Below, in pieces: positions 52,474-57,893 of a DNA stretch of 64,000 bases. The position numbers and the translations under genes were made by a program. The stretch comes from Flavisphingopyxis soli (lineage in GTDB: Bacteria; Pseudomonadota; Alphaproteobacteria; Sphingomonadales; Sphingomonadaceae), in the NCBI RefSeq assembly GCF_007995095.1, contig NZ_VOPY01000002.1, positions 310,001 through 374,000 of the forward strand. The letters run 5' to 3'. The stretch's first letter is position 1. Each line of letters starts with the position of its first letter. Below the pieces are notes generated by a model. That model did no database searches, had not been told where the DNA came from, and saw only the letters and a list, made by a program, of their open reading frames with translations.

Positions 52474-55128
52474 ATGACCTCGACCAACGACATTCGCCGC
52501 GCCTTCCTCGATTACTTTGCCGGGACCGGACACACGCGCGTGCCTTCGGCGCCGCTGGTGCCGTATAACGACCCCAGCCTGATGTTCGTCAACGCGGGCA
52601 TGGTGCCGTTCAAGAACGTTTTTACCGGGCTGGAAACGCGCGATTACACGACGGCGACGTCGAGCCAGAAATGCGTCCGCGCAGGCGGCAAGCACAACGA
52701 CCTCGACAATGTCGGCTATACCGCGCGCCACCATACGTTTTTCGAGATGCTCGGCAATTTCAGCTTCGGCGACTATTTCAAGGAAGCGGCGATCAGCCAT
52801 GCGTGGACGCTGCTGACCAAGGAATGGGGGATCGATCCCGACCGGCTGACCGCGACGGTCTATCACACCGACAACGAAGCGTTCGAGCTGTGGAAGAAGA
52901 TCGCGGGCCTGCCCGAAGAGCGCATCATCCGGATTGCGACCAGCGACAATTTCTGGGCGATGGGCGACAACGGCCCGTGCGGGCCGTGCAGCGAAATCTT
53001 TTACGACCACGGCGACCACATCCCGGGCGGGCCACCGGGATCGCCCGACGAGGACGGCGACCGCTTTGTCGAGATCTGGAACCTGGTCTTCATGCAGAAC
53101 GTGCAGGAAGCGGGCGTCGTTATCGGCGACCTGCCGCGTCCGAGCATCGACACCGGCATGGGGCTCGAGCGCATCGCCGCGGTGCTGCAGGGCAAGCATG
53201 ACAATTACGATATCGACCTGTTCAAGGCGCTGATCGCCGAGAGCGGCGACCTCACCCACACCTCCACCGACGGCGAGCACAGGGCGTCGCACCGGATCAT
53301 TGCTGATCACCTGCGTTCGACGAGCTTCCTGATCGCCGATGGCGTGCTGCCGGCCAACGAGGGCCGCGGGTACGTCCTGCGCCGGATCATGCGCCGGGCG
53401 ATGCGTCATGCGCATATCCTTGGCGCCAAGGACCCGCTGATGCATCGGCTCGTCCCCAGCCTGGTCGCCGAGATGGGCGGCGCGTTCCCCGAGCTCGTCC
53501 GCGCGCAGCCGCTGATCGTCGAGACGCTTGAGCGAGAGGAAACGCGGTTCCGCCAGACGCTCGACAAGGGCTTGAAGCTGCTCGACGAGGCAACCGCGGC
53601 GCTCGGCAAGGGCGACACGCTCGCCGGCGCAACCGCGTTCAAACTCTACGACACGTTCGGATTTCCCTACGACCTGACCGAGGATGCGCTGCGGGCGCAG
53701 GGTATCGCGGTCGATCGCGCCGGCTTCGATGACGCGATGGCGCAGCAGAAGGCCGCTGCGCGCGCGGCGTGGAAGGGATCGGGCGATACCGCTTCGGACG
53801 ATATCTGGTACGACATCGCCGACACACAAGGTTCGACCGAGTTCACCGGCTATGCCGCGACGACGGGCGAGGGCGAGGTCGTCGCGCTGGTCCGCGACGG
53901 CGCGCGCGTTGAGAGCGCTGCGGCCGGCGAGAGCGTGATGATCGTCACCAACCAGACGTCGTTCTATGGCGAGAGCGGCGGGCAGGCGGGCGACAGCGGC
54001 GTCGTGTCGAACACCGGTGGTCTCAAGGCGAGCGTCACCGACACCGGCAAGCCGCTGGGCAAGCTGCACGCACATCATGCGACGATCGAAGCGGGCACGA
54101 TCAAGGTCGGCGATGTCGTCCGGCTCGACGTCGATGCTGCGCGCCGGAATCGCGTCCGCGCCAATCACAGCGCGACGCACCTGCTCCACGCGGCGCTGCG
54201 CCGCCAGCTGGGCGAGCATGTCACGCAAAAGGGCAGCCTGGTCGCCGACGACCGGCTGCGTTTCGATTTTGCCCATCCCAAGGCGCTGAGCGCCGAGGAG
54301 ATCGCCAGCGTCGAGGCCGAGGTCAATCGCCACATCCGCGAGAACGACGCGGTGACGACGCGGCTGATGACGCCCGACGACGCGATCGAAGCGGGCGCGA
54401 TGGCGCTGTTCGGCGAGAAATACGGCGATGAAGTTCGCGTGCTGAGCATGGGGCGCGACAGCGATGCGTCGTGGTCGGTCGAGCTGTGCGGCGGGACGCA
54501 CGTTGATGCGCTCGGCGATATCGCCTTGTTCAAGATCACCTCCGAAAGCGCGGTGAGTTCGGGCGTGCGGCGCATCGAGGCGCTGACCGGCGAGGCGGCG
54601 CGCCTGTATCTGACGAGCCGCGAAGAGGCGCTCAAAGCCGCCGCGGCGAGCCTCAAGACCGCGCCCGAAGATGTGCCCGCGCGCGTTGCGGCGATGGCCG
54701 AGCAGCTCAAGAAGATTGAGCGAGAGCTGGCCGAAGCTAAAAAGACGCTGGCTCTGGGCGGCGGGGCAGGGAGCGGCCAGGCCGACGAGGCGCCTGCGCC
54801 AGAGATGATCGGCGACGTCGCGTTCCTTGGCCGCGTTGTCGACGGCCTCGACCCCAAGGGGCTTCGCGGCGCGATCGACGACATGAAAACGCAGCTCAAA
54901 TCGGGTGTCGCGGCACTGGTCGCGGTCAACGACGGTCGCGCGAGCGTCGCGGTCGGCGTCACCGACGACCTCACCGCGCGCATCAGCGCGGTCGACCTGG
55001 TCAAGGCCGCGGTCGCCGCGCTCGGCGGCCAGGGCGGCGGTGGCCGCCCCGACATGGCGCAGGGCGGTGGGCCCGATGGCGGCGAAGCCGATGCGGCAAT
55101 TCAGGCCATTAAAGCCGGTTTGACCTAA
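52474..55128 (+). CDS. alaS: Alanyl-tRNA synthetase
   Basis: 884 residues, full length. The aminoacylation core has [20 protein letters not shown] and [19 protein letters not shown], the editing domain has [14 protein letters not shown] with the zinc-binding HxxxH and [17 protein letters not shown], and the C-Ala region ends with a Gly-rich (GGQGGGGRP) tail. It attaches alanine to tRNA-Ala and clears misacylated Ser/Gly. The stop overlaps the convergent higA stop by three bases. Confidence 0.97.
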
Positions 55129-55427
55129 GCCGCCATCGCCACGCGTTCTATCTTGAGCGATCGTGCCTTGGTGCGCGCCTCGGCGATATCATGCGACGAC
55201 TGCATCCGTAATAGCGTGTCGGCACGAAGGCCGAACGCCTGCTCGAACCGGATCGCCATCTCGGCCGACAGGCTCGCACGGGCATTGAGCAGCGCGCTCA
55301 ACGCGGCGCGAGAAATGCCTAGCCTACCGGCAAGATCGGTCACGCTCAGGCCGCTGGGGCCGACGACTTCATCCTTAAGCCAAGCGCCCGGATGGATTGC
55401 AAAGTCCTTATGCAGGGTGATGGCCAT
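55125..55427 (-). CDS. higA: HigA-type antitoxin, helix-turn-helix
   Basis: 100 residues. The HTH is [20 protein letters not shown] (about residues 27-46), in the higA-type arrangement [20 protein letters not shown] at the N-terminus and [21 protein letters not shown] after the helix. HigA binds and inhibits HigB and represses the operon. Its start overlaps the last base of the toxin gene, the toxin-first order typical of hig modules. It lies convergent to alaS, with a 3-base overlap. Confidence 0.92.
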
Positions 55428-55714
55428 TAGTGATAATCCTCCAGGTCGATGTCCTCGATCGCATTCGCGTCGTTAATCCGAAACGTCATGCGCCAGTTTT
55501 TCGTCACGATTAACGACCAGACGTGCTTTCGGTCGCCAGTCAGTAAATGCGCGCCGAAATTTGGCGGTATTCGCAACTCGTCGGCTTCGCCGATTGCAGC
55601 AAGATAGGCGATGATGTTGCGCAACCTTCCAATGGCATTGGCCGGGAGGCCCTTCGTCTTTCCGCTCTCGGCAAAATTGCGGAGAGCTTTGTGGCGAATG
55701 CTTTCGATCTCCAT
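55427..55714 (-). CDS. higB: HigB-type toxin (RelE/ParE superfamily)
   Basis: 95 residues, the normal size. Signatures: FAESGKTKGLPANAIGRLRN, an LIPPNFGAHLL-like segment (LRIPPNFGAHLLTGDRK), VWSLIVTKNWRMTFRINDAN and the C-terminal IEDIDLEDYH. HigB proteins cut mRNA on the ribosome. A 17-spaced promoter ends only 5 bases before the start codon, and no Shine-Dalgarno is visible, so translation from a leaderless mRNA is possible. Confidence 0.92.
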   Translation of the reverse strand: MEIESIRHKALRNFAESGKTKGLPANAIGRLRNIIAYLAAIGEADELRIPPNFGAHLLTGDRKHVWSLIVTKNWRMTFRINDANAIEDIDLEDYH

Positions 55715-55768: not shown

Positions 55769-56179
55769 TCACTCCACCCCCTTGATCTTCCCCCATTGCC
55801 GCGCGACGGTGTAGCCGAGATAGCCGGTGCCAAAGAGCGCGTAGAGCGGCTCGGGGATGCCGGCGAGATAGGCGTTCATGCCGTGGGCGATCGCCATGGC
55901 GGTGTCGGGCTGGACCGCGGCGATCAGGCCCATCGGGATCGCCCAGAGCAGCAGCGCGTACATGACATAGAGGAAACTGGGCCGCGCGCGGCTGGTCCAC
56001 GGGTCGGCGCTGTTCGCCTCGGCGACGATCGCCTGCATGCGGACGCTGACCGCTTCGAGCTCCTGCGAGCCTTCGAGCTTGATCAGTTCGAGCTTGGCGC
56101 GGTCGCGCGCTTGCGGGTCGGGGATGATCTTGTCGATCAGTTGCGCGACGGGGCCGATCAGCCCTTCGATAATTCCCAT
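55769..56179 (-). CDS. Holin of the 3TM gene-transfer-agent family
   Basis: 136 residues. A leading amphipathic region is followed by DPWTSRARPSFLYVMYALLL, then membrane helices (residues 65-90 and 105-125) and GTGYLGYTVARQWGKIKGVE, characteristic of the GTA_holin_3TM family found beside lysozymes in alphaproteobacterial gene transfer agents and phages. AAGGAACAAAA precedes the ATG. It is encoded 68 bases after the endolysin on the same strand, the expected lysis-pair order. No phage structural genes are nearby. Confidence 0.88.
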   Translation of the reverse strand: MGIIEGLIGPVAQLIDKIIPDPQARDRAKLELIKLEGSQELEAVSVRMQAIVAEANSADPWTSRARPSFLYVMYALLLWAIPMGLIAAVQPDTAMAIAHGMNAYLAGIPEPLYALFGTGYLGYTVARQWGKIKGVE

Positions 56180-56247
56180 TTTTGTTCCTTTCGAGCTTAC
56201 AAGTTCACGGGTTCACACCGTCCAGGGACAGGTTCACGGGTGTGACC

Positions 56248-56787
56248 CTAGCCGATCCGGTTCGCCAGCCAGCCGTAGAGGAAGGCCTCGTTGGCGGGGC
56301 GGCGTTCGGCCAGATCGATGTAGCGCGCGCCCTGGAGCGCCTCGATGGCCTTGAGCAGGACGGTCTCGCCGCCTGCGCCGCGCACGGCCAGAAAGGCGTC
56401 GAGAGCGGCAAGGGTGCGGGGGCCGACGACGCGATCGACCGCGAGGTCGCCGTAATCGCGGCCATTGCGGTTGAGCGCATTAAGCGCCCGCTGGAGAAAG
56501 CCGCTGGCAACCCCGACACCCATGTTGACCGCGGTATCGAACAGTTCTGCGGCGATCCGGGGAGCGCGCGCTGCGACCTTTTCATAATTCGGTCGCAGCC
56601 AGTAGAGGCGGCGATAGATCGCGATCGCCTCGGCGCGGGGAAGACTGCGCATGGCGCCGGCATAGCCATGGCGGCGCGCGACCGCCTCGGTAATGCCGTA
56701 GCGCGTCGCGCCGCCGGCATCGTTCGGGTTGTGGACGAAGCCGCCCTCGCGATCGATCAGCTCTTCTACCAGTGTCTCGAAATCCAT
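56248..56787 (-). CDS. GH108-family endolysin with PG_binding_3 domain
   Basis: 179 residues. The catalytic glutamate is Glu14 in DREGGFVHNPNDAGGATRYG, the GH108 hallmark, followed by YGITEAVARRHGYAGAMRSL. From about residue 70, FDTAVNMGVGVASGFLQRAL and VDRVVGPRTLAALDA form the peptidoglycan-binding domain. It cleaves cell-wall glycan strands for phage or GTA release. GGGAG precedes the ATG. Together with the holin gene it makes a lysis module without visible structural genes; the CckA-CtrA system controls GTA expression in relatives, but no link is shown here. Confidence 0.9.
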   Translation of the reverse strand: MDFETLVEELIDREGGFVHNPNDAGGATRYGITEAVARRHGYAGAMRSLPRAEAIAIYRRLYWLRPNYEKVAARAPRIAAELFDTAVNMGVGVASGFLQRALNALNRNGRDYGDLAVDRVVGPRTLAALDAFLAVRGAGGETVLLKAIEALQGARYIDLAERRPANEAFLYGWLANRIG

Positions 56788-56898
56788 AATTCACTCCCGA
56801 TGAGACGGGAACATAACCAGAACGATAATGTGTAGGAAAGCGGTTTTTCTCGTCCAATGGCGAGCCTGCGCGGTGCGAGACGCCTGCGCGCGCTGGTG

Positions 56899-56964
56899 CT
56901 TCGACAGGCTCAGCATGAGCGGGTGAGAGGGGCGGCCGCGGAGACGGCCTGCGGCGTGTCGAAG
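56899..56964. repeat. Inverted-repeat element upstream of tRNA-Pro
   Basis: CTTCGACA (56899-56906) and TGTCGAAG (56957-56964) are perfect inverted repeats around a GC-rich centre; the left side continues as GGCTCAGCATGAGCGG, a typical tail of sphingomonad intergenic palindromes. Confidence 0.6.
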
Positions 56965-56995
56965 TGGTTTTTGCCGCCAACCTGTCTTGCCGGAC

Positions 56996-57024
56996 TTGCC
57001 TTGCCGTCATCATGTGCCTAAAGG
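56996..57024 (+). promoter_or_regulatory. Possible promoter of tRNA-Pro
   Basis: TTGCCT (56996-57001) and TAAAGG (57019-57024) are 17 bases apart, 12 bases before the mature tRNA. The -10 match is poor. Confidence 0.3.
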
Positions 57025-57036
57025 CGCGCACTCGGT

Positions 57037-57113
57037 CGGGACGTAGCGCAGCCTGGTAGCGCATCACACTGGGGGTGTGGGGGTCGGAGGTTCGAATCCT
57101 CTCGTCCCGACCA
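57037..57113 (+). tRNA. tRNA-Pro (anticodon GGG)
   Basis: A 77-base cloverleaf. The acceptor arms CGGGACG and CGTCCCG pair perfectly, with A73 and encoded CCA (57111-57113). The D-arm is GCGCAGCCTGGTAGCGC. The anticodon stem TCACA/TGTGG surrounds the loop CTGGGGG with anticodon GGG, reading CCC and CCU codons. The T-arm is GGAGG-TTCGAAT-CCTCT. The next bases are the tandem-hairpin array. Confidence 0.95.
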
Positions 57114-57225
57114 GTTTACAAAGCCCGTCCGGGGGACGGGCTTTGTAAACTCCCGACGTGCACAGGCACGCAGGGGTGGCCGTCCGGGGGACGGTCTTTC
57201 TAAACTCCCAAGGCGGCCTGCCGCC
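57114..57225 (+). repeat. Four consecutive hairpins in two related 55-base units, directly after tRNA-Pro
   Basis: Hairpin A1 is a perfect 17-bp stem with a GGG loop (57114-57150). Hairpin B1 is CGTGC-ACAG-GCACG (57157-57170). Hairpin A2 is an 8-bp stem with the same GGG loop (57178-57196). Hairpin B2 is GGCGGC-CT-GCCGCC (57212-57225). The 30 bases 57125-57154 recur at 57180-57209 with 2 differences, so A1/B1 and A2/B2 are copies of a 55-base unit. No T-run makes a simple terminator doubtful, but it could end the tRNA transcript or be a structured RNA. Confidence 0.75.
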
Positions 57226-57539
57226 GAGGGTATGCGTTCTGGCGCGACCCTCCAGCAAACCCATCTTCCGCTTCGGCTATCTGGCTCCAGCTCGACAGAG
57301 TTCGATCGCGATCGTCGGGTGATGTACGAGTCTCGGGATGGGCCGCCGCCTGTGCCGGGACGACAGAGTAGCGGCGTTTGAAGTAAAGTCGGGCCTCGAC
57401 CGCGCGGCGCTATTGAAGTTGCCCGTGCCCCAACCATCTGCTAACCGCGCGTCACATTCGAGGATCGTCGCCCGGCCGGGCTTTTGCGCGGTGTGCTGGC
57501 GCGGTCCAGACCCCAATTTGGCACAAAGCGAACCGATTT
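57226..57539. other. Intergenic stretch with no gene seen
   Basis: About 310 bases between the hairpin array and yajC. I see no supported reading frame, no RNA gene and no clear promoter. A GC palindrome GCCCGGCCGGGC (57470-57481) followed by TTTT could terminate a transcript from the left, 55 bases before yajC. Confidence 0.5.
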
Positions 57540-57893
57540 ATGGACCTCATGACCTTTCTCATTCCCGCCGCGCATGCGCAGGACGCCGCCGGCGCAGCAT
57601 CGGGCGGCGCAGGCGGCTTCATCATGAGCATCCTGCCGTTGCTGCTGATCTTCGTCGTGTTCTGGTTCCTCCTGATCCGTCCGCAGCAGAAGCGGATGAA
57701 GGAACACGCCGCCAAGGTCGGTGCAGCGCAGCGCGGCGACACCGTCGTCACCGGCGGCGGGGTTGTCGGCAAGATCACCAAGGTCGAGGACGAATACGCC
57801 CATATCGAGATCTCCAAGGGCGTGACGATCAAGGTCGTCAAGGCGACGCTGAGCGACGTCGTTTCGCCGATCTCCAAGCCCGCCAACGACTGA
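57540..57893 (+). CDS. yajC: Preprotein translocase subunit YajC
   Basis: 117 residues. One transmembrane helix (about 31-47, ILPLLLIFVVFWFLLI) followed by RPQQKRMKEHAAKVGA and RGDTVVTGGGVVGKITKVED, the family signature. YajC is associated with the SecDF complex that helps SecYEG export. No clear Shine-Dalgarno is seen before the ATG. It is followed 37 bases later by secD and then secF. Confidence 0.95.
   Translation: MDLMTFLIPAAHAQDAAGAASGGAGGFIMSILPLLLIFVVFWFLLIRPQQKRMKEHAAKVGAAQRGDTVVTGGGVVGKITKVEDEYAHIEISKGVTIKVVKATLSDVVSPISKPAND

Follow-up and report, generated by a model that had tools for sequence, protein, structure and literature searches.

A two-hairpin element at the CCA end of tRNA genes in Sphingomonadaceae and its possible role as a structured 3' trailer

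RNase III signals such as T7 R1.1 consist of a duplex of about 20 bp with an interrupted middle and lie at the junction of two transcripts. In the tyrT operon of E. coli, a tRNA is followed by rtT RNA and tandem repeats; RtT is represented by an Rfam family of its own. For the rRNA operons of E. coli, dual terminators with a small RNA between them and read-through of the first are described (PMC8144298). Here we describe an element of two adjoining hairpins, A and B, which begins within the CCA end of tRNA genes. No description of this element was found in the literature searched, which covered few subscription papers, and term look-ups in PMC8632094, PMC11109978 and PMC2864571 returned nothing on it.

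In the window, a 64,000-nucleotide stretch of the 2.59 Mb genome of Flavisphingopyxis soli, ARAGORN places a tRNA-Pro(ggg) gene with encoded CCA at 57037-57113 on the plus strand (Rfam RF00005 at 57037-57110). Hairpin A1 (57113-57151, plus strand) was identified as an inverted repeat, by folding and by R1, a covariance model of A (match 57111-57156, E 8.8e-14). Its arms of 18 nt each (57113-57130 and 57134-57151) are 100% complementary and enclose a 3-nt GGG loop, forming the tip UCC-GGG-GGA. The palindrome of 37 bases with a 17-bp stem in the original prediction lacks one pair, the outermost one between A76 of the tRNA CCA (57113) and 57151. With zero gap, A1 is followed on the same strand by hairpin B1 (57152-57175), which from the fold and the B alignment is built as CCC-GA-5 bp-4 nt loop-5 bp-CA-GGG. 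Next come A2 (57178-57206, from repeat and fold), made up of an 8-bp stem at 57178-57196 and a retained 3' arm to 57206, and hairpin B2 (57207-57230, from fold and B alignment) with the form CCC-AA-5 bp-4 nt loop-5 bp-GA-GGG, so that the end of the element originally set at 57225 falls short. The claimed identity of 28 of 30 bases between 57125-57154 and 57180-57209 is exact (2 of 30 differ), and, as also claimed, B1 and B2 fold into the same shape, CCC-NN-5 bp-4 nt-5 bp-NN-GGG, from unlike stem sequences. A2-B2 is a second A-B copy, partly decayed, whose A2 3' arm might alternatively pair with the 5' arm of A1 (16 of 18 pairs). The minimum free energy of 57111-57235, -73.4 kcal/mol, lies well below the -50.2 (sd 3.9) obtained from 200 shuffles that keep dinucleotides (z -5.96), none of which folds as low. 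Only tRNA scored above its Rfam cut-off in the window; around the locus, 26 matches were obtained at E <= 10, with only tRNA passing the cut-off and Thr_leader as the best non-tRNA match (25.7 of 55 bits, E 0.0052). The next recognised same-strand gene 3' of the tRNA is yajC (57540-57893, plus strand). Two gene pairs occupy the minus strand between alaS and tRNA-Pro: a HigB-like toxin and its HTH partner (55125-55714), and, at 55769-56787, a GTA-type 3TM holin next to a gene with glycosyl hydrolase 108 and peptidoglycan-binding assignments, a pair that resembles a lysis cassette from a phage or gene transfer agent.

The proposed check whether other tRNAs of this genome carry the same unit gave a positive answer, with A present at 8 of the 43 tRNA-model matches, at the SRP RNA gene (RF00169) and at one further locus. 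R1, which was trained on nine of its own ten top genome matches, gives ten matches at E <= 2.9e-9; the tRNAs concerned are Pro-ggg, Pro-cgg, Pro-tgg, Thr-tgt, Tyr, Leu-taa and two Met. Among the weaker R1 matches are second copies, reversed reads of the same palindromes and, at E 0.011, guaA at its 3' end. Across the A copies, the arm sequence varies and both stem length and flush start are constant. In a test that fixes the register at A76 and does not use the tip (18-bp stem, 3-nt loop, G.U counted as a pair), the tRNA flanks are bimodal, seven of the 43 forming 17-18 of 18 pairs and the other 36 at most 10. A value of 16 pairs was reached neither in 20,000 flanks after shuffling by blocks of two (maximum 15) nor in 6,665 test windows farther downstream. 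The eighth flank, that of a tRNA-Met, has 18 bp in a register shifted by 3 nt, and the tip UCC-GG(A/G)-GGA is found in this copy as well as in all seven register-positive flanks. The remaining 35 of the 43 tRNA matches are without A. At tRNA-Val(tac) (C3:71818), the flank holds only a 9-bp palindrome that includes CCA and has no tip, perhaps a decayed A. A strong A hairpin stands on contig C1 (L144:1410-1546, hairpin 692371-692416) after a stretch that ends in CCA and whose ends, judged by eye, seem able to form a 7-bp acceptor-like stem; ARAGORN names nothing there, and no Rfam family scores above its cut-off. At the guaA (GMP synthase) gene, the identity of which was confirmed, the weak A-like hairpin (L151, E 0.011) overlaps the stop codon, as it does by eye in five family genomes (L184, L336, L358, L362, L365).

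In the family copies compared, A starts at A76 of CCA, comprises 18 to about 21 pairs and carries the tip UCC-GGN-GGA, with B following at once. Outside the genus, A rises from a 9-bp base, is bulged on the 5' strand only, continues with 11 bp and closes in a GGN triloop. The bulges of type 1 are separated by a lone pair, which is G-C in 17 of 26 and C-G in 7 of 26 copies; for type 2, the sequence of the bulged strand is TGACN in 7 of 10. B in relatives is typically CCCGAGCGNNAGCGAAGGG or CCCAAGCGCAAGCGCGGG. The constancy of the tip and of the AGTT/AACT base in relatives is partly built in, because both were part of the pattern by which relatives were searched. With this pattern, 56 of 397 family genomes returned 73 matches in all; of 72 distinct ones (one duplicate dropped), 48 are flush behind a complete tRNA, six follow tRNA 3' parts, 17 are taken as chance and the last is a hairpin elsewhere. 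A genus-specific element, suggested by a rigid pattern, was rejected, as the longer form in relatives is family-wide. The search of sphingomonad genomes that had been proposed succeeded: R2, a covariance model whose training copies come from the same 397-genome sample, yields 142 matches at E <= 1e-4 in 81 of the 397 family genomes (75 of 360 high-quality genomes; 33 of 96 genera) and none in the other 316. All 142 could be placed, 128 of them behind a tRNA (115) or a tRNA 3' part (13). Of the complete tRNAs, 113 were called by ARAGORN and two by eye (L315, L364), and the 3' parts are remnants, duplicates and one contig edge. Further placements are one SRP RNA gene (L340), five guaA genes, five second tandem copies and three unexplained sites; the 3' parts, SRP, guaA and second copies were assigned by eye from flanking sequence. 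Among the 113 ARAGORN tRNAs, the commonest carriers are Val-tac (26), Thr-tgt (14), Pro-tgg (13), Pro-cgg (11) and Leu-taa (11).

In a sample of 385 genomes of the class Alphaproteobacteria, the tRNA-flush matches seen belong to family members. At E <= 1e-3 and with stricter filters, R2 matches five of these genomes, two being family members; in the other three (G786, G828, G845), inspection by eye found no tRNA within 60 bases 5' of the match. As a stem resembling A precedes a B-like CCCGAGCGTAAGCGAGGG at the G786 locus (L261), relatives of the A-B element may occur outside the family. A cross-phylum element was considered because an Oscillospiraceae MAG (L071) contains a palindrome that is perfect, flush with CCA and alike in its tip. 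We hold this palindrome to be convergent, because the other tRNA palindromes of this genome look like ordinary terminators: among 30 flanks examined of its 34 tRNA matches are several other long palindromes, with other tips and U-runs. At these loci, the long palindromes take in CCA, some also bases of the acceptor 3' strand, and a shared CCGCTGCGGCGGGG-like stretch follows, possibly marking another trailer family. Matches in Pelagibacterium and Fibrobacteria were discarded, their fold being unlike A-B.

The notion of retained structure with changed sequence finds strong support from covariation in A and weaker support in B. In 16 equal-length A sequences from the two species of the genus (leaving aside the sister-species Pro-tgg and Pro-ggg copies and the L144 copy), 94.1% of cells are paired and 15 of 18 pairs have changed on both sides. 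Their covariation score is 0.716 compared to 0.225 (sd 0.028) for shuffled alignments (0 of 500 as high), and sliding the partner by 1 to 3 columns leaves at most 54.5% paired; the count of further pair types does not exceed that of the shuffles (128 of 500). In 26 copies from relatives, 98.0% of cells are paired, a fraction raised by the choice of register-fitting copies, 12 of 21 pairs have changed on both sides and the score is 0.432 versus 0.152. The relatives' set comprises the distinct copies that fit the register, 26 out of 30 with a length of 50 nt and 10 out of 11 with a length of 52 nt; 12 copies of other length were excluded. Ten B units, hand-picked for a length of 24 nt, show 90% pairing and a score of 0.469 versus 0.189 (sd 0.040), again with further pair types not above the shuffles (154 of 500). 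In the sister species (G044), which has a 400-base stretch identical to one in the Sphingomonadales MAG CG_2015-16_66_10, the ortholog of the tRNA-Pro(ggg) locus differs in the A arms and in the B stem. At five tRNA loci, the sister species differ by 1 to 7 of 18 pairs in which both sides have changed; no pair is broken at four of these loci, two are broken at Thr-tgt, and at the SRP locus, the sixth ortholog pair counted (fMet, Pro-tgg and Pro-ggg were not), 6 of 18 are unpaired in one of the two species. Unforced stem cells amount to 446 Watson-Crick, 12 G.U, 3 A.C and 7 other in relatives and to 224, 5, 2 and 9, respectively, in the genus. Sixteen cells are thus mismatches other than A.C or G.U, and the pooled ratio of 17 G.U to 5 A.C has a binomial p of 0.008 if cells are taken as independent, which they are not fully, the numbers being small. 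Both the G.U excess and the one-sided bulges fit selection on the tRNA-strand RNA. The predicted A-B structure is well supported.

We consider it nearly an even prospect that A-B is a cis-acting, structured 3' trailer of some tRNA genes and of the SRP RNA gene, which insulates the tRNA and marks a cut from the downstream RNA. Both the 'tRNA trailer' and the 'structured RNA' originally suggested fit the evidence. From sequence we infer the following mechanism. Once the tRNA is transcribed, A would fold right beside the acceptor end, prevent downstream RNA from pairing with the tRNA and shield the tRNA 3' end. As a duplex of roughly two turns, it would also be offered to an endonuclease, separating the tRNA precursor from the downstream RNA; RNase III is our guess at a candidate, made from the stem length. 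B would then cap the new 5' end of the downstream RNA and protect or control it, and where a gene follows directly, the GGG(A)GG strand of B would act as its Shine-Dalgarno sequence. In favour of the trailer speak the 128 of 142 matches behind a tRNA or tRNA 3' part, the preservation of shape under changed letters in A and B, the signs of selection on the sense RNA, and the U-tract missing in 44 of 54 copies. Against it stand the further-pair-type counts within the shuffles, the sixteen other mismatches and the unpaired positions of the SRP locus. It also counts against the trailer that A is dispensable for tRNA maturation in general, since 35 of 43 tRNA matches of this genome lack it and 316 of 397 family genomes have no match at E <= 1e-4.

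A stable GC-rich hairpin directly behind a tRNA gene is also what a terminator would look like, and A could be a lineage-specific intrinsic terminator, perhaps partial and bidirectional, with A- and U-tracts paired in the stem and with B and the second copy as back-up stems. We regard this as rather unlikely, and the terminator suggested originally is the weaker reading. The stable tip stem occurs behind stable RNAs and behind guaA, and in 26 type-1 copies, the A-U pair at columns 18-38 is invariant. A U-rich tract, counted as at least 5 T within 8 bases of that part of the 3' arm which was tested, is, however, present in only 10 of 54 copies, namely in 2 of 7 genus copies, 8 of 34 type-1 copies and 0 of 13 type-2 copies, and is thus missing in 5 of 7 genus copies and 39 of 47 from relatives. 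Moreover, no terminator-like site was found in 56500-57700, and the basal pairs beyond the U-tract covary too. In five loci, the next gene begins 17-19 nt 3' of the match with the 3' strand of B as apparent Shine-Dalgarno sequence: a LMW phosphatase behind Pro-cgg (two genomes) and a MATE transporter behind Pro-tgg (three genomes, one below the Pfam cut-off). Trigger factor (43 nt), Obg (77 nt) and seryl-tRNA synthetase (72 nt) follow at looser distance; all these cases were chosen from a crude ORF scan, which yields no rate. Genes that start right behind B imply read-through and, together with the few U-rich tracts, argue that A is not simply an intrinsic terminator; type-1 copies may terminate transcription.

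Between A and B lies an ACUCCC strand, the ACU of which can pair with the AGU beside CCA and the CUCCC with GGGAG of B. In three type-2 folds, the CU before CCC pairs into B in the minimum-energy structure and into A in the centroid. Because of this change of partner, A-B might be a tRNA-coupled control device, in which ACUCCC would switch between A and B (CUCCC with the Shine-Dalgarno GGGAG), folding or cutting of the trailer would set downstream translation, and the UCC-GGN-GGA tip would be the site for an RNA-binding protein on tRNA precursors. We consider this model improbable.

Perfect palindromes may also be kept so by mutation, i.e. by template switching in quasi-palindromes, instead of by selection on the RNA. 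The concerted change of both arms between sister species, with four of five tRNA loci unbroken, would be expected of such a process. It appears quite improbable, though, in view of the G.U excess over A.C, the bulges on one strand only, and the start, length and tip that are constant at many loci.

Least of all do we favour a mobile, REP-like repeat or integrase attachment element settling at tRNA 3' ends, which is very improbable despite tandem second copies in several species (5 of 142 R2 matches) and 13 of 142 matches behind tRNA 3' parts, several of them island-end-like: of the 13 exact GTCCGGGGGAC in the window's genome, 11 follow six tRNA genes in the orientation of the tRNA and two have by eye no long stem, only 3 of 142 matches lack a preceding stable RNA, guaA or first copy, and the unit of one relative has no match in plasmid or phage collections. 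Neither in the genome nor among the 142 family matches is the element dispersed over intergenic sites, making a dispersed mobile repeat unlikely. The 'mobile element targeting tRNA genes' of the original prediction finds no support: few copies lie elsewhere, and the tRNA-remnant cases show, by eye, the pattern of island-type use of a tRNA 3' half with the hairpin beyond. At L220, L238, L215 and L253, only a tRNA 3' part precedes the hairpin, and these hairpin-bearing ends, read by eye, look like the distal end of a tRNA-integrated island. In L252 and L253 (both G047), an insert of about 50 bases separates A from tRNA-Pro, which is complete in L252 and represented by its 3' part in L253. The end of this small insertion repeats the tRNA 3' end, restoring the tRNA-hairpin junction.

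Taken as a trailer or otherwise, A-B is a structured RNA element fixed to tRNA 3' ends in 33 of 96 sampled genera, with a constant tip and stems free in sequence. It raises the questions of how a tRNA 3' end forms when a stable hairpin begins at A76 and whether tRNA maturation is coupled to expression of the next gene, and since it stays beside tRNA 3' remnants, it may help to locate the far ends of genomic islands. With intrinsic terminators of tRNA genes, A-B shares the stable hairpin directly behind a stable RNA gene; an ordinary one with a T6 run is found behind tRNA-Ser(gct) of the same genome. A-B differs in that it mostly lacks the U-tract, includes A76 in the A stem, has a second hairpin and allows genes to start right behind it. 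Compared to RNase III signals of the T7 R1.1 type, the A duplex is similar in its interrupted middle, its presumed place at the junction of two transcripts and roughly its length (18 bp for genus copies; for relatives, the model has 21 pairs and bulges), a length common among hairpins, yet A has a constant tip and a fixed place at the tRNA CCA. Like the tyrT rtT RNA and repeats, some loci (L252, L253) repeat the tRNA 3' end, but length and structure of A-B differ from rtT, and RtT is absent among the Rfam matches of the window at E <= 10. The dual terminators described for E. coli rRNA operons (PMC8144298) resemble A-B as two structures in series behind a stable RNA with read-through of the first, whereas genes and sequences are others and B here adjoins A without a spacer.
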